The notes beneath the pieces are model-generated. The model was not told the origin of the DNA. It searched no databases and was given only the letters and a program-made list of their open reading frames with translations. Of a stretch of DNA of 43,751 nucleotides, positions 17,604-42,770 are shown piece by piece. Numbering within the stretch: the first letter of the stretch is position 1; every line of letters begins with the position of its first letter. The position numbers were made by a program, and so were the translations under genes. The stretch covers positions 1 to 43,751 of IMG/VR virus record IMGVR_UViG_3300048928_000371; one strand, 5' to 3'. The stretch comes from a virus.

Positions 17604-18764
17604 TTATTGCGCTTGCGTCCAGACGGTCGTTCCGGCCGATCGGCCGCGGGGCGCTCCCGATCGCCAGCGCCAGAAGCTGCCCGCCATGTCCACGACGCCC
17701 TTGGCCGAGGCGTAGCGGCGCACCAGGATCATGCGATCGTCTTCGCCCTTCACCCACACCCACGCGATCTGCGCGGGATCGAGGAGGATCTTCGCCGCGT
17801 CGGTCAGCTCGCGCGCCTGGCCGGCCGAGAGCGAGACGATGTCACCATCGGCGCCGCGCAGCAGCCCGGCCGAGATCGCCAGCGGCCATCCCGCCCGATC
17901 GGTCCAGACCTTGCCGCCAATCGCGGCTTCGCGGGTCTTCAAACCGAACGCCGCAAAGAAGGCTCCCACGGAGTCGTAAGCGGCCTCTGAGAACACCGCC
18001 TGCAGCTCGCCCGCGTCCTTGCTGGTGAGCGGTGCCGGCGTCAGTCCGTCGAGCGGCGCCTTGCCGACATTGTAGCTCCAGCCCGGATCTATGCCGCGCT
18101 CCAGGCGCGTCACTTCGCCGGTGCGCTTGTTGACGTAGTCGCGCTCGGGGAAGCGCGGCGGCTCCTGCACCGCCCAGCCCCGGCGATCGAGCATGCGCTG
18201 GCTCAGAGATTGCGTGTCGCACCGGCATCCCCACCCGCAAGGTGGATTGTGCGTGTCCCACCACGGATCGTCGACCGGCAGCACCGTGCCATGCCAGTCG
18301 TGGTGCTCGGGCCGCTCGCGCCCGTCCATCACCGAGACGTAGCGCAGGAATGGCAGCGTCTTCTTGGTGCGCTCGATCCGCTGCCACTTGCCCGCCGCGT
18401 AGCTGGTGCGAAGGTTCGTCTCGTAGATCGTCCGCAGCCGGGCCGGGCTGCCGAGCTGCACGACCTTGGTCTCGCCGGTCGCCGGATCGTCCATCAGCGC
18501 CTTGCCCCACCAACCCCGCGCCTGGAGCTTGGGGCGCAGGCCCTTCGCGAACTGCTGCAGCGTCTGCCCTTCGGCGAGCGCCTGGTCGACGGCGGCGCGG
18601 ATGTCCTCCAGCAGATCCCGGCTTGTCGCCTTGGCGACGGTGAAGGCTTTGGCGTGCTCCTCCTGCCAGACATCCCGCCAGTCGAACGCGATCTGAAAGC
18701 CCTTGGCGCGAAACCAGGCGATCGCCTCGGCAGGATCGAGGCGGGGGAGCGGTTCGTCGACCAC
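17604..18764 (-). CDS. gp30 / F-like head morphogenesis protein with C-terminal PBECR2-like domain
   Basis: This 386-residue protein begins with the Mu gp30 pattern (DPAEAIAWFRAKGFQIAFDW, then WQEEHAKAFTVAKATSRDLL). The middle carries TIYETNLRTSYAAGKWQRIE and HNPPCGWGCRCDTQSLSQRM, the hallmark of the SPP1 gp7/Mu F-like minor head domain. The C-terminal hundred residues (KVWTDRAGWPLAISAGLLR, then AAKILLDPAQIAWVWVKGED, and a FWRWR-containing end) resemble the phage PBECR2 nuclease-like domain attached to such proteins. The GTG at 18764 was chosen because it is near the family start and six bases after the preceding stop. The protein is probably carried in the head, and the end domain may enter the cell with DNA. 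Confidence 0.85.
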   Translation of the reverse strand: MVDEPLPRLDPAEAIAWFRAKGFQIAFDWRDVWQEEHAKAFTVAKATSRDLLEDIRAAVDQALAEGQTLQQFAKGLRPKLQARGWWGKALMDDPATGETKVVQLGSPARLRTIYETNLRTSYAAGKWQRIERTKKTLPFLRYVSVMDGRERPEHHDWHGTVLPVDDPWWDTHNPPCGWGCRCDTQSLSQRMLDRRGWAVQEPPRFPERDYVNKRTGEVTRLERGIDPGWSYNVGKAPLDGLTPAPLTSKDAGELQAVFSEAAYDSVGAFFAAFGLKTREAAIGGKVWTDRAGWPLAISAGLLRGADGDIVSLSAGQARELTDAAKILLDPAQIAWVWVKGEDDRMILVRRYASAKGVVDMAGSFWRWRSGAPRGRSAGTTVWTQAQ

Positions 18765-18769
18765 GCGGC

Positions 18770-19342
18770 TTACTGGATGCCGGTGGAAGGAAAGGCGCCG
18801 GCCAGCAGCAACGGGCGCACGCCTGCCGCGTCGACCGCAAGCGCGGCGCCGGCGGCGTTGCCGGCAAGTCCGGTGGGAAGCTGCCACACTTCGTTGCGCA
18901 ACCGGCAATATCCGCCCAGGTTCTCGCGCAAGCCCGGCAGCACGCCGATGCTGACATGATGCCCGGCCTGGGCCATCAGCGCCTCGACGGTGGCCTTGGC
19001 ATTGCGCGTGTACCAGGCGCGCCGCTCGACCGAGCCGGTGGCCGAGCCCAGCGGAACAAAGGCATGAAACACGGTCGCCTCGCGGTCGCTCAGCAGCGTG
19101 GCGGTGAGCAGCTCCTCCGGCAACGCGTCGTCCGCCAAGGCCACGCGGTCCTGCCGGCCGATGTCGCTGCCGGCGGTGACGAGCAGCCCGCGCGGGTTGC
19201 CGTCCGCGTCATGGTCGAAGCGCGGCGCGTCGATCACGGCCGACCGCTCCGTCCCGCCGGCATCGGTGTACGTGGCGGCTTCCGAGCGGCTGAAGGCGAA
19301 GACGCTTGCGAAGTCGGCCTGGCGAAGATCCCCGGCCGCCAT
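18770..19342 (-). CDS. Unknown virion-associated protein between portal and gp30
   Basis: This 190-residue protein is not recognised with confidence. Its N-terminus contains SRSEAATYTDAGG and APRFDHDADGNPRGLLV, a pattern (PRfdyd...RGLLie) seen near the start of phage head-attachment or fibre proteins. The C-terminal part is alanine- and glycine-rich. It sits between the portal and gp30 genes, where Mu has no extra gene, and is coupled to both by close spacing. A small head fibre or decoration role is possible but not shown. Confidence 0.6.
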   Translation of the reverse strand: MAAGDLRQADFASVFAFSRSEAATYTDAGGTERSAVIDAPRFDHDADGNPRGLLVTAGSDIGRQDRVALADDALPEELLTATLLSDREATVFHAFVPLGSATGSVERRAWYTRNAKATVEALMAQAGHHVSIGVLPGLRENLGGYCRLRNEVWQLPTGLAGNAAGAALAVDAAGVRPLLLAGAFPSTGIQ

Positions 19343-21018
19343 CAGGTCGCGCCAGCCTTCGCCGCCTCGCCGGACACGCGAGCCGCGAAGAGCCCCTTGG
19401 CCAGCGCCTCTGTAAAGGCGTCCGTACCCATCTTCTCGATCGTCTCCGACAGGCGCGATTGCAGCTCACCGAGGTCGGAGCAATCGCCGATCAGGAAGTC
19501 CACCGGATCGAGCATCGGCGTCACCAGCGCCTCCCAGTCACCCAGCGCTTCTTCGGTCGTTAGCGCGATCGGATCGGGCTCACGCTGCGAGCCGGATCCG
19601 GCCTGTTGCGATTGGAGGGTGGGCGTGTCGGTCGGACTTGCCCCTGTCGTCGATTTAAGAGGGGCTAAGAGGTCATTCGCCGGACTTTTCCCGGCACCGC
19701 TGAGGGGCGGCGCTCCTGTGCCGTCCTGAGGCGAATTTGCGGGGACCGCCTGACCGGGTGCCTTCAGCGCGCTTTCATCGCTCTTCGCGGCCGGCAATCC
19801 GGCACGCTCGCGCATCTCGTTGCCGTCGATCTTCACGCCCATGCTGGCGAGCGTCGCAGCCGTTTCGACGGTGACCTTGATGTCTTCCGCTTCAGGTCGG
19901 CCGATCTTGAGCCGCGGGTATTTCTCTCGCGGCCCTCGGTTCAACATGACCAGGGGAGGAACGAGATCGCGGTTGAGCGTAGCAGCCGTCAGCTTCGCAT
20001 CCGCGCGCTCGATCGTGTCGGCGACGCGGCTATGACTGTTGGCCTGACCATTGCCAATACCACCTGCGACCGCGTCCGTCGTGCTCGTCTGGCCCAGCAC
20101 CGCCTTGGACAGCTGCAGGTCGATGTACTCGGCGTGGCTCCTCCAGAGGTCGTTGGGCGCTGTGCCCGCCTTGCGGTCTACGAACTCGACAGACATCGTC
20201 TCGGGAAAGGCTGCCGCCGCGTCGCTGCCCAGCTCGTAAAGCGCGCGATAAAGCGTCGCCTTGTTCTCCTCGCTCTCGGCCGGGCCGTATTTGCCGATGC
20301 GAATGGGGTGGCCGTAGCGCTCAAGGAACGTCACCCAATCCTTGATCGCAAAGTTCTTGAACATGTAGCCCCAGGCCGCGATGCGGGCGAGACCGCTGCG
20401 GATCGGCAGGCCGGATTTGCTCGGATGAAAGTGGACGATGAACTTCCCGCCCGGCAACGGCTCCGGCGAGCCAACGCCCTCGGCGCCGCCGCGCAGCAAC
20501 AGGTCTTCGCCGGTCTCCTGGTCGAACTCGAACCAACGCGGGTCCCGCCACTTGAGCGCTCTGGGAAGCCATGCATTCGGCTTCATGTCCCAAACGATCT
20601 CAGTGGCGGACACGCCCTTGCCGATCGCGTCGAGGATGTCGAACAGTTCGGACTCGAGCATGTCGCGATCGAGCCAGTCCTTGACCAGCTTGGCATCCTC
20701 CTTCGCTTCGGCATCGTCGCCCGCCGGCTCGACCTCGATCGGCAGTTGCGCCACCGCGAGCTTTCGCGTGCGCAGGAGCGCCAGATAATGGAGATCCTTC
20801 TCCTCCATCTCCTCGGCCAGCTCGTAGTACGCGATCGCGTCGCCCTGTTCGGCCGAGAGCAGTAGGCGCGCCAGGCGCTCGGGCGTGAGGCCCTGCGCCG
20901 GGTGGCCCGACTGGATCGTGCGCACCGAGGCGCGCGTCGGACGCGCGATCTCCTGGCCAAGCTGCTCGCGTACGAACGGCCGACCATCGGGCAGTACAAG
21001 AGCGGGAGGATTAGCCAC
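19342..21018 (-). CDS. Portal protein (gp29, DUF935)
   Basis: This 558-residue protein is the Mu-type portal. It has GLTPERLARLLLSAEQGD, YYELAEEMEEKDLHYLALL and RTRKLAVAQLPIEVEP in the first 130 residues, then IVWDMKPNAWLPRALKWRDP and FLERYGHPIRIGKYG, all conserved in DUF935. The portal ring lets DNA enter and leave the head. Residues 410-480 form a low-complexity Pro/Ala/Ser linker before a helical C-terminus. The GTG at 21018 overlaps the preceding small gene by eight bases. Confidence 0.93.
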   Translation of the reverse strand: MANPPALVLPDGRPFVREQLGQEIARPTRASVRTIQSGHPAQGLTPERLARLLLSAEQGDAIAYYELAEEMEEKDLHYLALLRTRKLAVAQLPIEVEPAGDDAEAKEDAKLVKDWLDRDMLESELFDILDAIGKGVSATEIVWDMKPNAWLPRALKWRDPRWFEFDQETGEDLLLRGGAEGVGSPEPLPGGKFIVHFHPSKSGLPIRSGLARIAAWGYMFKNFAIKDWVTFLERYGHPIRIGKYGPAESEENKATLYRALYELGSDAAAAFPETMSVEFVDRKAGTAPNDLWRSHAEYIDLQLSKAVLGQTSTTDAVAGGIGNGQANSHSRVADTIERADAKLTAATLNRDLVPPLVMLNRGPREKYPRLKIGRPEAEDIKVTVETAATLASMGVKIDGNEMRERAGLPAAKSDESALKAPGQAVPANSPQDGTGAPPLSGAGKSPANDLLAPLKSTTGASPTDTPTLQSQQAGSGSQREPDPIALTTEEALGDWEALVTPMLDPVDFLIGDCSDLGELQSRLSETIEKMGTDAFTEALAKGLFAARVSGEAAKAGAT

Positions 21019-21187
21019 GGAGAACCGGCTCCCCGCCGGCTGCATTCGCCACCCAGAGGAAGGCGGTTTGGAACTGCGTCCGCGCGACGGCAGTCGACCG
21101 CGCGTCGGCACCGGACGCCTCCTTCAAACTGTCGAGCAGCTTCTGTACCGCCGCGATCGCCGCGCCCAGGTTCTCTTCCAAGCTCAT
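21011..21187 (-). CDS. Small helical-hairpin protein resembling Acb2/Tad1 hairpin domain
   Basis: The 58-residue protein consists of two predicted helices: LEENLGAAIAAVQKLLDSL and ARSTAVARTQFQTAFLWVA, joined by a short loop. The second helix resembles the consensus of the Acb2/Tad1 hairpin family (SRE-SLAxTxLEEAxMWANAAIA). Acb2 proteins bind cyclic nucleotides and block CBASS defence, and some are encoded in transposable Pseudomonas phages. The match is partial, and the known binding residues cannot be checked here. The ATG at 21187 has GGAGG nine bases upstream; an ATG at 21193 is an alternative. It lies between the terminase and the portal genes. Confidence 0.6.
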   Translation of the reverse strand: MSLEENLGAAIAAVQKLLDSLKEASGADARSTAVARTQFQTAFLWVANAAGGEPVLRG

Positions 21188-22740
21188 CACCATGCCCCTC
21201 CGCCCCGGCCGAACCGGCTCTCATCACGCCCGCGCACATCGGCCGGGTTGAAGTAGCCCGGCTGACCGCGCTTCATCCCGCGCGGCACGTCGCCGGCACC
21301 AATTCCACGATACTCGTAGAGCCCGCCCGCCAGCTCGGCCGCGCGCGAGGCGAGGCCGTAAGCCCAGAAGCGGTCGGCATGGACCTCGCCGTCGTTGACG
21401 ATGCGGATGCTGCCCGATGCTTCGCTGCCCATCTTCTTGAGCGCCATCAGGTCGGCACGGGTCTTCGGATCGGGGCGGATGCGGATCTTGCGTGTCTCGA
21501 ACCGACGCTTCAGCCCCGTGGCCAGGTCATAGCGCGTCGGCCCCACGAGCAACTCGCCGACCACCCGCGAGGCGCCGTGCTTGCGCACCAGGTCCTCGAC
21601 CACCTTCTCGCCCATGCCGCCCTGGTCGACGCGCCACTGCACCATGCGCCGACGCGTGAACGTGTCGCTGAAGAACGCGTCCTGGTGCGCGAAGCTCTGA
21701 CCGACTTCCTCGTAGGTATCGCGCTGCCACAGCACGTCGCCGACCAGCTCCATGACATACTGCACCTGGCCGTCGTTGCGCCGCGCCACGTCGCGGCCAC
21801 CGTAGCAGAGCCCGCCAAGGTACAGCTCGGCGACGCCGGCGTCCTCGTGCTCACAGGCGAGGATGTCCTCCAGGCTGATCAGCGCCCCCGAGCCCATCTT
21901 CGGGACGCAGTCCAGCTCTTCGCCGGCGTCGTCCCCGTAGGCGGCGCGGATGTCGGCTTCCCACTGCTCCTTGGGGGCTAGTTCGGTGCCCTTGGTCTGC
22001 GCCACCAGGCTGACCCGCTCGTAGAGCCCTGCCTCCATCGCGTCGCGGAACGTGATCTTGAGCGGCACGCCCTTGCGCTTGCCCGCCCTGATCTCCTCGA
22101 GGAGCACGTTGAACGGGTTGGATACGCCGTCGTGCGTGCTGATCACCACGACCTGGCCGCCCCAGATCAGCAGCGCCATGGCCGACTTGATCACTTCGTC
22201 CACGTTCTTGTGGAACGCCGCCTCGTCGATGATGACGATGCCCTGCTTGCCGCGCAGGGCTCGCGGGACGCTCGGCAGCGCGGTGATGCGAAAGCCGGAG
22301 GCGAAGCGGATCGAGAACGCCTTGACGCCCTGTTCCTTGCCGTTGTCGTCGACGTAGAGGACTTCCTCCTCTTCCATCTCGCCGGCGACCAGGCCAAAGG
22401 CGCGAGCCCACATGGCGCAGACCTCGATAAATTCGAGGGTCATGTCCTTGTCGTAGCCCATGTACCAGACGTTCTGGCCACCGGCCGCGACCGAGCTGGC
22501 CGCCTTCAGCGCGGCGAAACCCGCGACGCCCCAGGTGAGCCCAATGCGCCGCGACTTCTCGATGACCAGCAGCGCGGTGCCGGCGAACAGCAAGTTGACC
22601 GTGCGCTGCTGGTAGCCGAGCAGCAGGTCGCCCCTGGGCAGCCGCATGATCGCCGCCTCGGCCGCGATCCGGTCGCCCTGGATCTCGCGCGCACGGATTT
22701 CCGCGTCGCGCTTCGCCTGGTCTTCGGGGGAGAGCTTCAT
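21187..22740 (-). CDS. Large terminase subunit (gp28)
   Basis: This 517-residue protein is the packaging motor. The ATPase has an adapted Walker A (EKSRRIGLTWG, about 61-71) and Walker B with catalytic glutamate (GIVIIDEAAF, about 167-176), then the coupling motif VVVISTHDGVSNPF. The C-terminal nuclease region contains YLGGLCYGGRDVARRNDG and ADRFWAYGLASRAAEL. The length and order match Mu gp28 (gpE). Mu-like phages package by headful, including flanking host DNA. The start overlaps the previous gene as ATGA. Confidence 0.94.
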   Translation of the reverse strand: MKLSPEDQAKRDAEIRAREIQGDRIAAEAAIMRLPRGDLLLGYQQRTVNLLFAGTALLVIEKSRRIGLTWGVAGFAALKAASSVAAGGQNVWYMGYDKDMTLEFIEVCAMWARAFGLVAGEMEEEEVLYVDDNGKEQGVKAFSIRFASGFRITALPSVPRALRGKQGIVIIDEAAFHKNVDEVIKSAMALLIWGGQVVVISTHDGVSNPFNVLLEEIRAGKRKGVPLKITFRDAMEAGLYERVSLVAQTKGTELAPKEQWEADIRAAYGDDAGEELDCVPKMGSGALISLEDILACEHEDAGVAELYLGGLCYGGRDVARRNDGQVQYVMELVGDVLWQRDTYEEVGQSFAHQDAFFSDTFTRRRMVQWRVDQGGMGEKVVEDLVRKHGASRVVGELLVGPTRYDLATGLKRRFETRKIRIRPDPKTRADLMALKKMGSEASGSIRIVNDGEVHADRFWAYGLASRAAELAGGLYEYRGIGAGDVPRGMKRGQPGYFNPADVRGRDESRFGRGGGAW

Positions 22741-23033
22741 TTCGACCAGTACTTCGTCTGAGGGCAAACGCCAGCAACTGGGCAACGATCGCAATATCTC
22801 GTCTGATACCGCTCACCACGATGATCTCGAACGTGCGGGCAGCCATGAGCACGAAGCGACGGTGCAATCCCGTCCTGATCCGCCGCAGGCACTTCGACCA
22901 TCTTCGTCGCAACTAATTGGCAGACTTCAGTTAGCGCCCGAAGGTGTTCAACGCCGCCCGGCAATTGTGCAAGCTTGAGCCGATCGGCTCTGATCGCAGC
23001 CATCTCCGCTTCATCGACCAGATACTGCATCAC
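22737..23033 (-). CDS. Unknown small Cys-rich protein between the terminase genes
   Basis: This 98-residue protein is not recognised. The N-terminal half is helical (ADRLKLAQLPGGVEHLRALT); the C-terminal half has HGCPHVRDHRG and YCDRCPVAGVCPQTKYW, four Cys with His residues that could bind a metal ion. It is translated with both terminase genes through ATGA overlaps on each side, so a packaging-related role is possible. Confidence 0.6.
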   Translation of the reverse strand: MMQYLVDEAEMAAIRADRLKLAQLPGGVEHLRALTEVCQLVATKMVEVPAADQDGIAPSLRAHGCPHVRDHRGERYQTRYCDRCPVAGVCPQTKYWSK

Positions 23034-30788: not shown

Positions 30789-32738
30789 TCAGTTCTTCAC
30801 CAGCTTCAATCTCATGGCGTTGATGATCCCGGCCTCGCGCTCGGTGCTGCGCGAAGGCTGTGGCTTGAGCGCCGCCGCTGTCTGCCCGCGATGCCGCACC
30901 GGCCGGATGACCGCCGGTTCGGGCAGCTCGGACACGGGCGCGTCGGCCTGCAGCGCAGCGACCTGCTCGGCGGCGAGCAGCATCTCGGCCTCGGCGGCGC
31001 CCCGGATCGTCTTGCGGTAATCGGCCCACCGCCTTGCCGCGGCTTTTGCGCCGGCAGCGTCGAGGAAGCCGGTGTCCTGGATTACGTCGGCGCTGGTCAG
31101 GTAGAGCCCGTCGAGCGCGTAGAGGTGGATCGGCCGCATCAGGTTGTCCGGATCGAAGCGGACCGTAACCTTCTGCCCATGCAGCTCGCCGCAAGCATCC
31201 GACCAGTAGCGGTTGCCGTAAAGCTCGACTTCGCCGGTGCGGCGATCGACGGTCTTCTGATCGGCCGCGAGCAGTGCAAGGCGCAGCTGCTCGGGCGTGG
31301 CCTTGCCGATCGGCGCCGAGGCGTAGCTTTCGTTGAACACCTGGTCGAAGCTGCGGCCCCGCGCCATCTCCGTGCGCCGGCCAAGCTTGGCATTGTGAGC
31401 GGCCATGCCGCGATCGACGTGAGCCACGAACACATCCCAGGCGATCGCGCGGCTGCCGTAATTCTCCGGTTTCGCCATCGGATTGTTGCCCGTGTAGGCG
31501 CCCTCCATCGCGGGATGCTTGGCGATGCTCTCGCACAAGTCCCGGAAGCCGCGCTCGATCGGCTTGGACTGGCCGCGATAGGGAAGCGCCCAGTGGATTT
31601 CGATCCCGAGCGCCGTAAGGACGCCAGTGGGCTCCTCTTCCTTGATCTTGAACCGGAAGCGGCTCTTGGCGCCGCCCGTGATCCATTTCGATGCAAAGGC
31701 GCGCCCGTTGTCGAGCACGCAGGCCTTGGGGATGCCGAAGGTCTCGAACACGTCGGCGAAGGCGAGGCGTGCCTGCACCGCGCTTTCCTCGCCGCCGATT
31801 CGCCAGGCGAGGAACTTGCGGCTGTAGATGTCCTGGATCGCCACCATGATCGGCCGGATCACCCGGCCGTCAGGCGTCTTCACGAACACGTCGAACTTGT
31901 GGCCGTCGATGTTGACGCATGCGAGCGCGTGCAGGTCGGCGACCGTGCGGCGCTGCGATGGAATCGAGCGGCGGAGTGCCTCCTCCCCCTCGCGGCGCAG
32001 CAGCAGCACCGCCTTGGGGATTTCGCGCTCTATGCGCCGCCTCAGCGTCTTCTCAGAGGGCATCGAGAGGCCCATCTGCGCCGCCCGCATAGCCGTACGA
32101 TCGTAGCAGCTGGTGAGCGTCGGCGCGCTGGGGCGCAGATAATCGCTCTTGAACAGGTTCCACAGACCAAGGTCCATCTCGGCCTCGGCTCCGCCGCCTT
32201 TGCGCCTTGGCGCCAGCGCCGGCAGGCGGTTTTCGCGGGCAACGCCTTTGATCTTGTCCAGCCAACTCCACATCGTCGAACTCCCGATTGAATGGCGCTG
32301 CGCGATCTCGGACACAGCCGCCGATCGTGTGAGACCCGAGCCCTCCAGAAGGTCGATTTCGTTCACCATGGCGAGACGACGCTCGGCCTCGGCGCGCACT
32401 TTGCCGCTCTGCGATTCGAGCCAGCGCCAACCATCGTTCCGCACCGTGACGGGCGCCGGCCGATCTTCGGTGAGGCCCCGCCGGGCAAGCTCCAGGCGCG
32501 CAGGGCCGGGCAGGAGCGAAACGTGGTATTCCACGCCGCCGCCCCGGCCGCGTCGCTCGCGGATCGCGGGCTCGCCATCCGGGCATGTGCGCAAGGACCA
32601 GCGCTCTTCCTGGCAGCGCCGGTTGATCGAGCGCTTGTCGGCGGGCAGGCCTGGCAGCGCCAGCTCCGCCAGTTCGGCGGCGGTGAACCACTCGCGAGAG
32701 GCCGGTGCATCGTCATGATCTGCGGCGCGACTGGCCAT
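30789..32738 (-). CDS. MuA-like DDE transposase
   Basis: This 649-residue protein carries out replicative transposition. The N-terminus (WFTAAELAELALPGLPADKR and INRRCQEERW near 17-47) is the MuA winged-helix domain. The DDE triad is visible: D278 in CVNIDGHKFDV, D343 in VLDNGRAF and E395 in KPIERGFRD, close to MuA D269/D336/E392. The C-terminal Mu-type beta-barrel region follows (VELYGNRYWSD, RFDPDNLMRPIHLYALDG). The start at 32738 is preceded by a G-rich ribosome site and overlaps the previous gene by 26 bases. Confidence 0.96.
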   Translation of the reverse strand: MASRAADHDDAPASREWFTAAELAELALPGLPADKRSINRRCQEERWSLRTCPDGEPAIRERRGRGGGVEYHVSLLPGPARLELARRGLTEDRPAPVTVRNDGWRWLESQSGKVRAEAERRLAMVNEIDLLEGSGLTRSAAVSEIAQRHSIGSSTMWSWLDKIKGVARENRLPALAPRRKGGGAEAEMDLGLWNLFKSDYLRPSAPTLTSCYDRTAMRAAQMGLSMPSEKTLRRRIEREIPKAVLLLRREGEEALRRSIPSQRRTVADLHALACVNIDGHKFDVFVKTPDGRVIRPIMVAIQDIYSRKFLAWRIGGEESAVQARLAFADVFETFGIPKACVLDNGRAFASKWITGGAKSRFRFKIKEEEPTGVLTALGIEIHWALPYRGQSKPIERGFRDLCESIAKHPAMEGAYTGNNPMAKPENYGSRAIAWDVFVAHVDRGMAAHNAKLGRRTEMARGRSFDQVFNESYASAPIGKATPEQLRLALLAADQKTVDRRTGEVELYGNRYWSDACGELHGQKVTVRFDPDNLMRPIHLYALDGLYLTSADVIQDTGFLDAAGAKAAARRWADYRKTIRGAAEAEMLLAAEQVAALQADAPVSELPEPAVIRPVRHRGQTAAALKPQPSRSTEREAGIINAMRLKLVKN

Positions 32739-33201
32739 CAATTCCCCCCGAGCGGATAGGCGACGCAGATCCCGCAATCTCGCGCCGTCGTGACTTCAAT
32801 TGTTCGATTTCACGGTCGATGTGCCCCAGTTCGGCCGTGATCACTTCCTCGCCGACCAGGACGGCCATGCCGCCCTCACGCATGATGGGATCGAGCAGGT
32901 CCTGCCGGTTGGTGACCGTCGCCAGCACGATCATGCGGGCGAACGAAATGTTGTGGGTGTCGCGCGACGGCGCCGAGTAGGCGTCGAGCATCCACCGGCT
33001 GATCTCTTCGCCGGCGAGCACCGTCATCTCGGCCGCGATCACCTCGCGCCTGCGCCCGTCGCTGGCCAGCATCGTGCCCACCGTCTCCGAGACGCGCTGC
33101 TCCAGCCCGGCCAGCGCGGCAGGTGCTGTCTTCGGCGCAGGCGGCGCCGGCACGGTAAAGTCGAATGGCAGCTGCTCGGGCTGCGCCTTAGCCTTGGCCA
33201 T
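32713..33201 (-). CDS. Unknown early protein
   Basis: This 162-residue protein is not recognised. It has a basic start (AKAKAQPEQLPFDFTVPAPP) and a helical core (LAGLEQRVSETVGTMLASDG, EMTVLAGEEISRWMLDAYSA, ARMIVLATVTNRQDLLDP), and a coiled C-terminus (LGHIDREIEQLKSRRREI). The core may be a DNA-binding or toxin-antitoxin-like fold; this is a guess. It sits directly before the transposase. Confidence 0.65.
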   Translation of the reverse strand: MAKAKAQPEQLPFDFTVPAPPAPKTAPAALAGLEQRVSETVGTMLASDGRRREVIAAEMTVLAGEEISRWMLDAYSAPSRDTHNISFARMIVLATVTNRQDLLDPIMREGGMAVLVGEEVITAELGHIDREIEQLKSRRREIAGSASPIRSGGIDGQSRRRS

Positions 33202-35205: not shown

Positions 35206-35906
35206 CAGGCCAGCCACTCCACACGCGGGATCGGCTGACCCAAGCTTGGCAGCCAGATCGTGCGGGTCTCGCCCGGCCGGGTCGGCCTGCGCACGTCCCA
35301 GACGATCGCGCAGTAATCGACCATGCCGCCGCAGTACGCCCGCTTGCCCATCAGATGGACGCGGTCGCCCGGCGGCATCGACGGCCTCTCCGAGAAGTGC
35401 AGCACGAGCTGGGGCGGATGATCCTCGCGAAATAGGCGCGAGCGATTGCTCCACGTCTTCACGTCCTTGCCGGGCGCCAGCCACTTGTTCGGCAGCAGCA
35501 TCACCACGCGATGGGTGGCGAGGCCCAGCGCATGGCGGACGAACGCCTCGGCTATGCCCTTGATGTAGGAGTACGGCGGGTTGCAGAAGATCGACACCGG
35601 AGAGACGGGCGCCGCTGCGATCTCGCGGAAGTCGGCGGAGAAGTACGTCGGCCGGATGTCGAAATCGTCGTAGGCGACGTTCTCGACCACGTCGGAGAGG
35701 ATGATCCGATCGGCAAAGCCATGGTGGGCGAGCCGCGATCCCATGTGCCCGTAGCCGGCGGCAGGGTCCCACAGCCATGCGCCGTCGCGCAGTTCGTCGT
35801 CCAGCCCGATGGCGGCGACGATCTGCTCCCATTCCCAGCCCTGCTCGCAATACCAGTCGAGCGGGTGCCGCTTGGCGAACGTGCCGGAGGAGATTTCACC
35901 GCGCAT
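35205..35906 (-). CDS. Early DNA methyltransferase (amino-group type)
   Basis: This 233-residue protein has motif I LWDPAAGYGHMGSRLA near residues 45-60 and motif IV CNPPYSYIKG near 108-117, which define a SAM-dependent DNA amino-methyltransferase. The NPPY form suggests adenine-N6 or cytosine-N4 methylation. It lacks an obvious target-recognition domain. It is in the early operon, after the ParB-domain gene, so it could methylate phage DNA during replication. It is distinct from the Dam-type enzyme at the right end and the C5-like one in the tail block. Confidence 0.8.
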   Translation of the reverse strand: MRGEISSGTFAKRHPLDWYCEQGWEWEQIVAAIGLDDELRDGAWLWDPAAGYGHMGSRLAHHGFADRIILSDVVENVAYDDFDIRPTYFSADFREIAAAPVSPVSIFCNPPYSYIKGIAEAFVRHALGLATHRVVMLLPNKWLAPGKDVKTWSNRSRLFREDHPPQLVLHFSERPSMPPGDRVHLMGKRAYCGGMVDYCAIVWDVRRPTRPGETRTIWLPSLGQPIPRVEWLA

Positions 35907-37155
35907 CGGCGGGCGCCTTCCGGGCCTTGGCGCGGCGTGCCGTGCGAACCTTGTCGCGCCATGCCTGCTCGCGGTCGAAACGATAGTTCGGCGCTAGCAT
36001 CGGGTAATCGAGCGGCAGCTTCCAACGTGCCCGGTACTCGGCCGGCGTCATGCCCAGCTTGTTGAGGCGCATCGTCAGGTTGATGTGCCGGGTGCCGTCT
36101 TCCAAGCAGACGATGTAGTCCGGCTTCACCGAGGCGCGGATCGCGACGGCGGGCTTGGGGCCGGCCGGCTCCGCCTCCCCCAGCTCCGCATTGAGGCGAT
36201 CGCGCAGTTCCCGCTTCAGGCCCGGCGTGTCGAGCATCGCCGCGATCTTCGGCAGGAACTCCCGCTTCTGCGGGATGCTCAGCCGCCCCCAGCCGCCCTC
36301 GATCTGGTTGTAGAACTTCTGGTGCGCGACCGGCGTGGCCGCGTTGGCGGCGCCGGGCAGGCCGATGCCGAGGCGGACCTTCGCGTCGTCGACGCTCAGC
36401 TCGTCATCGCCGAGCAGCGCCTCGATCAGCGACTTGCGGTCGGCATCCTCGCGCACCTGGGCGATGTCGCGAAGCTGCTTGCCATTCTCGCCGACGACGG
36501 GGTGCTTCGAAAGCGCCTCCGCCATGCCCGGGAATGGCTCGATGACGAGGCGGAAAAGCTGGAGATCGTTGTGGATCGAGCGCCGTGACATGCCGAGCGC
36601 TTCACCGACCGATTCCTCCCAGCCGTATACGTGTGCAATCTTTGCACACGTATCGTCGGTCTCCTCGGCAAGGGCCTCCTGCGGCGTCGTCGCGTGCGCT
36701 TTCACCCGTGCCCAGCGCGCCTTGATCGCGATCTGCTGCTGCTTCAGGCCACCGTTCTCTCGGGCGATGCGCTCCTGCGCCGCCTGCACCAGCGCGGCGG
36801 TGAACTTTGCCCGCTCGATCGGCGCCAGCGGCCGGCGGTGCAGGTTCTCGCTCGCCTCCAGGTCGGCGAGCGCCTCGGGCTTGCCCGAAACTTCGACCGC
36901 CCAAACGGTGATGCCCTCGATCCGCGCGCCGATGAGCCGGTGCATGCCGGTGACCAGGCGCCACGGCTTGTCCGCGCCGGGCTTATTCGCGACCACCTTG
37001 ATCGGGTCGCGCTGGCCGTCGACCGCCATCAGGCGCCCGAGCGCCGCCGCCTTGTCCTCGTGCAGGAAGCCGATGCGCGTGCCTTCGTCGACATGCTCGG
37101 GCGACAGCTCGAACAGCTTGGCATTCGCCAGCAGGGATGTGGCGATCTGGGTCAT
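35896..37155 (-). CDS. ParB N-terminal domain protein fused to a MucR/Ros-like domain
   Basis: This 419-residue protein has a ParB/Srx-type domain at about 14-110 (GQRDPIKVV, KPWRLVTGMHRLIGARIEGI, ASENLHRRPLAPIERA) and an HTH-like region following (ESVGEALGMSRRSIHNDLQL). From about residue 335 it reads IRASVKPDYIVCLEDGTRHI and then GMTPAEYRARWKLPLDYPML with APNY, which is the fold signature of the MucR/Ros regulators. The Cys and Asp ligands of the Ros finger remain but the usual two His are replaced (RLNKLG), so metal binding may be lost. It is the largest gene before the transposase block; its role is likely DNA binding and regulation or segregation. Confidence 0.8.
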   Translation of the reverse strand: MTQIATSLLANAKLFELSPEHVDEGTRIGFLHEDKAAALGRLMAVDGQRDPIKVVANKPGADKPWRLVTGMHRLIGARIEGITVWAVEVSGKPEALADLEASENLHRRPLAPIERAKFTAALVQAAQERIARENGGLKQQQIAIKARWARVKAHATTPQEALAEETDDTCAKIAHVYGWEESVGEALGMSRRSIHNDLQLFRLVIEPFPGMAEALSKHPVVGENGKQLRDIAQVREDADRKSLIEALLGDDELSVDDAKVRLGIGLPGAANAATPVAHQKFYNQIEGGWGRLSIPQKREFLPKIAAMLDTPGLKRELRDRLNAELGEAEPAGPKPAVAIRASVKPDYIVCLEDGTRHINLTMRLNKLGMTPAEYRARWKLPLDYPMLAPNYRFDREQAWRDKVRTARRAKARKAPADAR

Positions 37156-40424: not shown

Positions 40425-42770
40425 TCAGTCTTCCTTGAGGAAGGCCGGCATGTGGCTGGGATCGCCGCCGCCGTTGTCGTCGCGGTCGCGACGCGGGCCG
40501 CGGTCGCGGTTGCCGCCCCGATCACCACCCCGATCACCGCCACGGTCGCCGCCCCTGTCGCCACGGGGACGACGGCGGTCACCGCCACGATCGCCGCCGC
40601 GATCACCACCCCGGTCGCCACGGGGCTCGCCCCGGTCGGACCTGGGCTCGCGCGGCGGACGGGTGTCCTCCAGCGCCTCGCCGGTCTCCTGGTCGACCAC
40701 GCGCATCGACAGGCGGACCTTGCCGCGGTTGTCGATCTCGAGGACCTTGACCTTGACCAGCTGGCCTTCCTTGACGACGTCGGTCGGCTTTTCGACCCGC
40801 TCGTTCTTCATCTCGGACACGTGGACGAGACCGTCCTTGCCGCCCATGAAGTTCACGAAGGCGCCGAAGTCGACGATGTTGACCACCTTGCCGTCGTAGA
40901 TCTTGCCGACTTCGGCCTCCTCGACGATGCCGAGGATCCACTTCTTGGCGGCTTCGATCTGGTTCACGTCCGAAGACGAGATCTTGATCACGCCCTCGTC
41001 GTCGATGTCGACCTTGGCGCCGGTCTCGGCGACGATCTCGCGGATCACCTTGCCACCGGTGCCGATCACGTCGCGGATCTTCGACTTGTCGATCTGGATC
41101 GTCTCGATGCGCGGTGCGTGGGCCGACAGTTCGGTACGAGCCGAACCCAGCGCCTTGTGCATCTCACCCAGGATGTGCGCGCGGCCGGCCTTCGCCTGCT
41201 CGAGCGCCTTGCCCATGATCTCCTTGGTGATGCCGGCGATCTTGATGTCCATCTGCATCGTGGTGATGCCGGCTTCGGTGCCCGCCACCTTGAAGTCCAT
41301 GTCGCCGAGGTGGTCCTCGTCGCCCAGGATGTCGGACAGGACGGCGAACTCGTCGCCTTCCAGGATCAGGCCCATGGCGATGCCCGAGACCGGACGCTCG
41401 ATCGGCACGCCCGCATCCATCATCGACAGACAGCCGCCGCAGACGGTGGCCATCGACGACGAGCCGTTCGACTCGGTCACGTCCGAGAGGACGCGGATGG
41501 TGTACGGGAAGTCCGCCTTGGCCGGCAGGACCGGGTGCAGCGCGCGCCACGCCAGCTTGCCGTGGCCGACTTCGCGGCGGCCCGGCGCGCCGAAGCGGCC
41601 GACTTCGCCGACCGAGTAGGGCGGGAAGTTGTAGTGCAGCATGAACGAGGAGTAGGAGAGACCCTCCAGCCCGTCGATCATCTGCTCGGCGTCCTTGGTG
41701 CCCAGCGTGGTGGTGCAGATCGTCTGCGTCTCGCCGCGCGTGAACAGCGCCGAGCCGTGGGTGCGCGGCAGGAAGCCGACCATCGATTCGATCGGACGGA
41801 CCTGGTCGAGCGTACGACCGTCGATGCGCTGGCCGTCCTTGAGGATGGCGCCGCGCACGATGTCGGCCTCGACCTTCTTCATGGTCTTGATCGCGACCAT
41901 CTGGGTCTGCGGGCTCTCGCCCGAGAACGCTTCCTTCGCCTTGGCGCGGGCGGCGTTGAGCGCGTCCGAGCGGGCCGACTTGTTGGTCAGCTTGTAGGCG
42001 GCGGCGACGTCGGCCCCGACGAGGCCCTTGAGCTTGGCCTTGATGTCGGCGGTCTTGTCCGACAGGTCGATGTCCCAGGGGTCCTTGGCGGCCTTCTCGG
42101 CCAGGTCGATGATGAGATCGACGACCTTCTTGATCTCGTCATGCGCGAACATGACGGCGCCGAGCATCTCGTCCTCGGTCAGCTCCTTGGCTTCCGATTC
42201 GACCATCATCACGGCATCGCCGGTGGCGGCGACGACGAGGTCGAGGCGGCCGTCGACCAGGGCCTGGTCCTGCTTGGGATTGAGCGTGTACTGGCCATCG
42301 ACGAAGCCGACGCGGCATGCGCCGATCGGGCCCATGAAGGGCACGCCCGAGATGGTGAGCGCGGCCGAGGCGGCGATCATCGCCACGATATCGGGCTCGG
42401 TCTCGCCGTCATAGGAGAGCACCTGCGCGATGCAGTTGATCTCGTTGTAGAAGCCCTCGGGGAACAGCGGGCGCACCGGGCGGTCGATGAGACGGCTGGT
42501 GAGCGTCTCCTTCTCGGTCGCACCGCGCTCGCGCTTGAAGAAGCCACCCGGGATACGACCCGCGGCGGAGAACTTCTCCTGGTAGTGGACGGTCAGCGGA
42601 AAGAAGTCCTGGCCTTCCTTCACCGACTTGGCGGCGGTCACGGCGCACAGCACCACGGTCTCGCCATAGGTGGCCAGCACGGCGCCGTCAGCCTGACGGG
42701 CGATGCGGCCGGTTTCCAGCGTGAGGGTCTTTCCGCCCCACTCCATGGATACGGTCTTTACGTCGAACAT
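40425..42770 (-). CDS. pnp: Polynucleotide phosphorylase
   Basis: This 781-residue enzyme degrades RNA by phosphorolysis. It begins [20 protein letters not shown] and has [20 protein letters not shown] and [20 protein letters not shown], the first RNase PH domain, then the second RNase PH domain ([18 protein letters not shown]), a KH domain ([20 protein letters not shown]) and an S1 domain ([20 protein letters not shown]). The C-terminus is an Arg/Gly/Asp-rich disordered tail with repeated [10 protein letters not shown] units, typical of alphaproteobacterial enzymes. It lies downstream of rpsO, the classical arrangement. Confidence 0.98.

Follow-up and report, generated by a model that had tools for sequence, protein, structure and literature searches.

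What is the role of a gene of only 58 codons that a Mu-type phage carries between its terminase and portal genes? The gene lies on the minus strand of the virus record IMGVR_UViG_3300048928_000371 (43,751 bases, the whole of which is called the window here) at 21011..21187, with its ATG at 21187 and its TAA at 21011, and its translation is MSLEENLGAAIAAVQKLLDSLKEASGADARSTAVARTQFQTAFLWVANAAGGEPVLRG. We find that it is a shortened relative of Acb2. The explanation that best covers the evidence as a whole, and which we consider evenly poised, is that the product would be a minimal hairpin sponge for cyclic trinucleotides, blocking either the cyclic oligonucleotide-based antiphage signalling system (CBASS) or type III CRISPR.

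A shortened relative of Acb2

Relatives were sought by scans with the protein and next with its alignment, and by a profile search of 80 terminase loci, giving ten distinct sequences (L001, L007, L009, L021, L026, L029, L052, L089, L091 and L094; L001 is the same as L002 and L008, and its carrier is Novosphingobium sp. NDB2Meth1). A Novosphingobium prophage encodes a protein of 62% identity to that of the window at the equivalent terminase–portal junction. Membership of the Acb2/Tad1 hairpin superfamily, proposed in a preliminary description of this DNA, is very probable from sequence comparison: PF24729 (Acb2/Tad1 hairpin) ranked first among 24,736 Pfam families for 11 of the 11 short members. 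While the profile search suggested in that description therefore returned the expected family at the top, the window protein itself stayed below the curated cut-off (21.9 versus 27 bits); relative L007 exceeded it (28.2 bits), and the remaining relatives scored from 13.8 bits (L052, the most divergent) to 25.9 bits.

Profile–profile comparison gave a firmer result. Aligned by hhalign with fifteen full-length Acb2-type proteins, including T4 Vs.4 and PaMx33 Acb2, ten short members matched with a probability of 97.1% (E=5e-11), and when the comparison was rerun under different settings the score was 48.5, whereas 200 controls made by shuffling the columns of the short family did not exceed 8.3. 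Homology to Acb2 is thus well supported, and the similarity is confined to helices 2 and 3. The top PHROG match of the window protein (P0002) is weak (phrog_717, E=0.063), and PaMx33 Acb2 matches the same family too (E=9.8e-33). Weak single-sequence matches in phage records included Ebordelon (E=0.03) and Polewnik (E=0.1), the two that were followed up; both are full-length PF24729 proteins (73 and 62 bits, respectively).

The open reading frame (ORF) is real, and the two helices attributed to it earlier recur in an AlphaFold2 model built on eight sequences, which predicts a hairpin of residues 3–23 and 29–51 with a mean predicted local distance difference test score of 88.5. Pairing the window gene with each of eight relatives gave ratios of nonsynonymous to synonymous substitution (dN/dS) of 0.19–0.67, third codon positions were the most variable, and the gene and its ten relatives are under purifying selection. 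A chance ORF or wrong frame is ruled out by the conserved relatives and dN/dS. We also considered a longer gene that might hide the part with Y11 and K26 of Acb2, which an in-frame stop 11 codons upstream of the start rules out.

As had been noted, the protein is shorter than Acb2 (58 versus 88–94 amino acids (aa)), and it is without the N-terminal helix. Describing its second helix as carrying an MWANAAIA-type motif was only approximate, since the sequence here is FLWVANAAGG and Acb2 proteins have MWAVKHITA or M...RAIAQP. Nor is Acb2 a protein particular to transposable phages, for which it had been cited: PaMx33 is classed as a Jamesmcgillvirus, T4 has the protein as Vs.4, and there are further matches in Vibrio phages, Aeromonas phages and others. 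The predicted extension of its range to sphingomonads is genuine, although not unique to this locus, as 8 of the 398 genomes sampled from the carrier's family encode PF24729 proteins above the cut-off.

Residues kept and lost

Residue positions are given in PaMx33 Acb2 numbering. Full-length proteins have invariant K26, T74 and M81, and R67 in more than 90%. The eleven short proteins contain no tyrosine anywhere and hence no Y11, and their N-terminus is too short for the N-terminal helix of Acb2; the K26 position, matched by eye to the helix 1 stretch, holds Ala, Ile or Val and no lysine, and position 85 is N or T where Acb2 has R or K. As judged from the Y11, K26 and R85 equivalents, the known cyclic-dinucleotide pocket of Acb2 is lost in the short proteins, and because these residues are missing, binding of cyclic GMP–AMP (cGAMP) in the Acb2 mode is unlikely; a cGAMP sponge, one of the ligands raised in the preliminary description, is accordingly disfavoured. 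Y8 of T4 Acb2 (PaMx33 Y11) is known to bind dinucleotides, with F82 stacking on the ligand (PMC12657218).

The hairpin core has been kept. The eleven short proteins share A70, R73, T74, L81 and A86 without exception, R67 is retained in 9 of them, and all 11 have a basic residue at 73 together with T74. In the window, this Acb2-like block, RSTAVART, spans codons R30 to T37 (21077..21100, minus strand) and includes the equivalents of R67, K/R73 and T74. The two-helix hairpin core, the R67-x5-K/R73-T74 block and PF24729 homology are therefore shared with Acb2 (PaMx33 ORF24, PaP2 p26 and T4 Vs.4). R67 and T74 reportedly line the trinucleotide pocket in structural work on Acb2 with cyclic tri-adenylate (cA3).

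In the Acb2 hexamer, two cyclic trinucleotides are bound at the trimer interface independently of three dinucleotide pockets, and Tad1, also a hexamer, has a similar site, with its trinucleotides at trimer interfaces (PMC12043709). The short protein has the PF24729 hairpin name in common with Tad1 and differs from it, as modelled, in being a helical hairpin only, with neither the N-terminal beta-sheet domain nor the pocket for glycocyclic ADP-ribose (gcADPR). The hairpin could bind alone, given that it is common to Acb2, Tad1 and the short proteins and that the trinucleotide site is apart from the dinucleotide pockets.

The short protein is probably a nucleotide sponge; that it is specific for trinucleotides is a narrower proposal, which we put at slightly under an even chance and which follows from the loss of the dinucleotide residues, the retention of the core block and the hairpin shared with Acb2 and Tad1. 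Such a minimal, stand-alone hairpin of Acb2/Tad1 type would act stoichiometrically and be made together with the late structural genes. Its conserved second helix would drive assembly into trimers or hexamers, and cyclic trinucleotide alarm signals of the cA3 or cAAG type would be sequestered at the three-fold interface, which may block CBASS, or cA3-using type III CRISPR signalling, in the sphingomonad host. It no longer has the N-terminal helix of full-length Acb2 or the residues from which the distinct cyclic-dinucleotide pocket is built. SAVED receptors typically sense trinucleotides, and the proposed target is present in the host clade, because SMODS CD-NTases occur in 17 and SAVED domains in 5 of 200 genomes sampled from the carrier's family, and a CD-NTase is present within about 4–5 kilobases of four of the SAVED genes.

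Several observations weigh against a trinucleotide sponge. Position 81 is L in the short proteins and invariably M in the full-length ones; in T4 Acb2 position 67 is D, which shows that the family can do without R67, and we therefore hold the trinucleotide step with only moderate confidence. The equivalent of T74 in T4 is T68, and T68M in phage Bas35 was reported to lower Acb2 binding (PMC12657230), which speaks for a sponge, although that report leaves the affected ligand unnamed. Searches of the hairpin model with Foldseek gave no significant hit, Acb2 being absent from the PDB matches and matched only non-significantly in BFVD (E=2.2), and both searches are uninformative for a hairpin of 58 residues. 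When PDB sequences were searched, the window protein and the family profile each returned chance helical matches only, and the profile did not reach the Acb2 chains. Lastly, Novosphingobium sp. NDB2Meth1, the sole named carrier genome, had no SAVED or SMODS match.

The short proteins also have a conserved segment of their own beyond the hairpin core (W82, N85 and A86, then GGE; LWxANAxGGE), unlike Acb2. This suggests a binding role of its own and raises the alternative of a sponge of the same fold for another ligand, for example a cyclic dinucleotide if the pocket has been remodelled, or gcADPR, or a nucleotide not connected with defence. However, the residues retained are those of the hairpin core, and we regard another ligand as unlikely.

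Loss of the dinucleotide site would equally be expected of a degenerate Acb2 remnant or a non-binding decoy, which might persist, for instance, as a way past Panoptes-type guards, and Panoptes does select for Acb2 loss and binding-site mutations (PMC12657218, PMC12657230). A 62-aa PF24729 protein from the carrier's host family (L102, in G365) resembles the short proteins in its truncated hairpin, missing Y11 and retained R67 and T74, and differs from them in having K at both positions 26 and 85 and in scoring 46.9 bits, above the Pfam cut-off; it may stand midway between the short family and full-length Acb2. A remnant does not fit the purifying selection or the strictly conserved core helix seen across the eleven divergent members, and a remnant or decoy is the least probable of the alternatives.

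An accessory gene in a late operon

The terminase gene, the hairpin gene and the portal gene form a classic case of translational coupling in a late operon. The terminase large subunit (PF17289/PF03237) occupies 21187..22794 on the minus strand as its longest ORF, and its TGA overlaps the ATG of the hairpin gene by one base, as TGATG. A likely ribosome-binding site, GGAGGGG (21195..21201, minus strand), is seen in the sequence within the end of the terminase gene, 7 nucleotides from the ATG. Downstream, the TAA of the hairpin gene overlaps by 8 nucleotides the probable GTG start, at 21018, of the Mu-type portal gene (19342..21018, minus strand; PF06074, E=2.4e-101).

Such coupling would suit an accessory of head assembly or packaging, an adaptor or chaperone between terminase and portal whose likeness to Acb2 reflects fold ancestry only, and in three relatives (L089, L091 and L094) the hairpin gene follows a gene that by eye resembles a head–tail connector and for which Pfam names no family. 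However, among 73 related loci that have both a terminase and a portal, the hairpin gene is present at 7 and missing from the junction at 66, some of them in phages whose terminases are just as similar, and its place is either empty or taken by a 39-aa zinc-finger-like protein or by some other small ORF. Mapped on a tree of 66 terminases, the eight carriers imply at least 7 gains or losses, which is indistinguishable from random placement. The hairpin gene thus behaves as an accessory gene.

In some phages, true Acb2 genes are similarly placed within the late structural region: between the capsid and head–tail adaptor genes in Pseudomonas phage AV002, before the tail sheath gene in one Vibrio phage and after the portal gene in another. 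Since Acb2 genes are also found in late operons, the position of the hairpin gene favours an accessory anti-defence gene over a structural part, and we consider a role in head assembly quite unlikely.

The junction between terminase and portal is a hotspot for small accessory genes. At four loci (L013, L017, L032 and L049) the 39-aa protein (LDGLHVCEECGDEFPKREM), which has two CxxC-type motifs and only weak zinc-finger matches, stands in place of the hairpin gene. Beside or instead of the hairpin gene, L007:5620-5829 and L019:5506-5709 encode a 70-aa protein (AEAWNRF...AIHQAQ...RAGRR). The first of these was considered as a second hairpin and rejected, as it had no Pfam match and matched phrog_13916 instead, a family whose label, 'DNA ligase', is implausible given the size of 70 aa. 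A 208-aa ORF with histidine motifs lies between terminase and portal at L038:5445-6068; by eye it resembles a lipid desaturase of the Kua/CarF type, which would be unusual cargo if real.

The prophage and what the hairpin may mean

Pfam matches identify the window as a Mu-type phage, with a transposase (30789-32777, PF02914), a gp27-like protein, terminase, Mu portal, Mu F-like protein, protease, gpT head protein, sheath and tape measure. It also contains a complete sphingomonad polynucleotide phosphorylase gene (40425-42770, minus strand), whose DNA is 85–87% identical to that of the best matches in the family to which the Novosphingobium carrier belongs; the record therefore ends in a sphingomonad chromosome, indicating an integrated prophage. 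Searches of plasmids and with PADLOC gave no match. The Mu F-like head protein (17604-18908, minus strand) has a C-terminal PBECR2 nuclease-like domain below threshold (22.1 versus 27.1 bits), which may be a toxin domain joined to a virion protein, and a 419-aa ORF (35896-37155, minus strand) carries a ROS/MucR regulator domain C-terminally.

We tentatively propose, as somewhat less than an even prospect, that stand-alone hairpins of fewer than 65 residues, carried as accessory genes between structural genes, bind cyclic trinucleotides only, the hairpin being a self-sufficient trinucleotide-binding module. In full-length Acb2, dinucleotides and trinucleotides have different binding sites. A natural hairpin-only protein would separate both activities and would test whether the hairpin by itself forms the trinucleotide site. 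It would also suggest how phages might evade Panoptes-type guards, which sense the sequestration of dinucleotides, and yet go on blocking trinucleotide CBASS, and other small anti-defence genes may be found at the terminase–portal hotspot.
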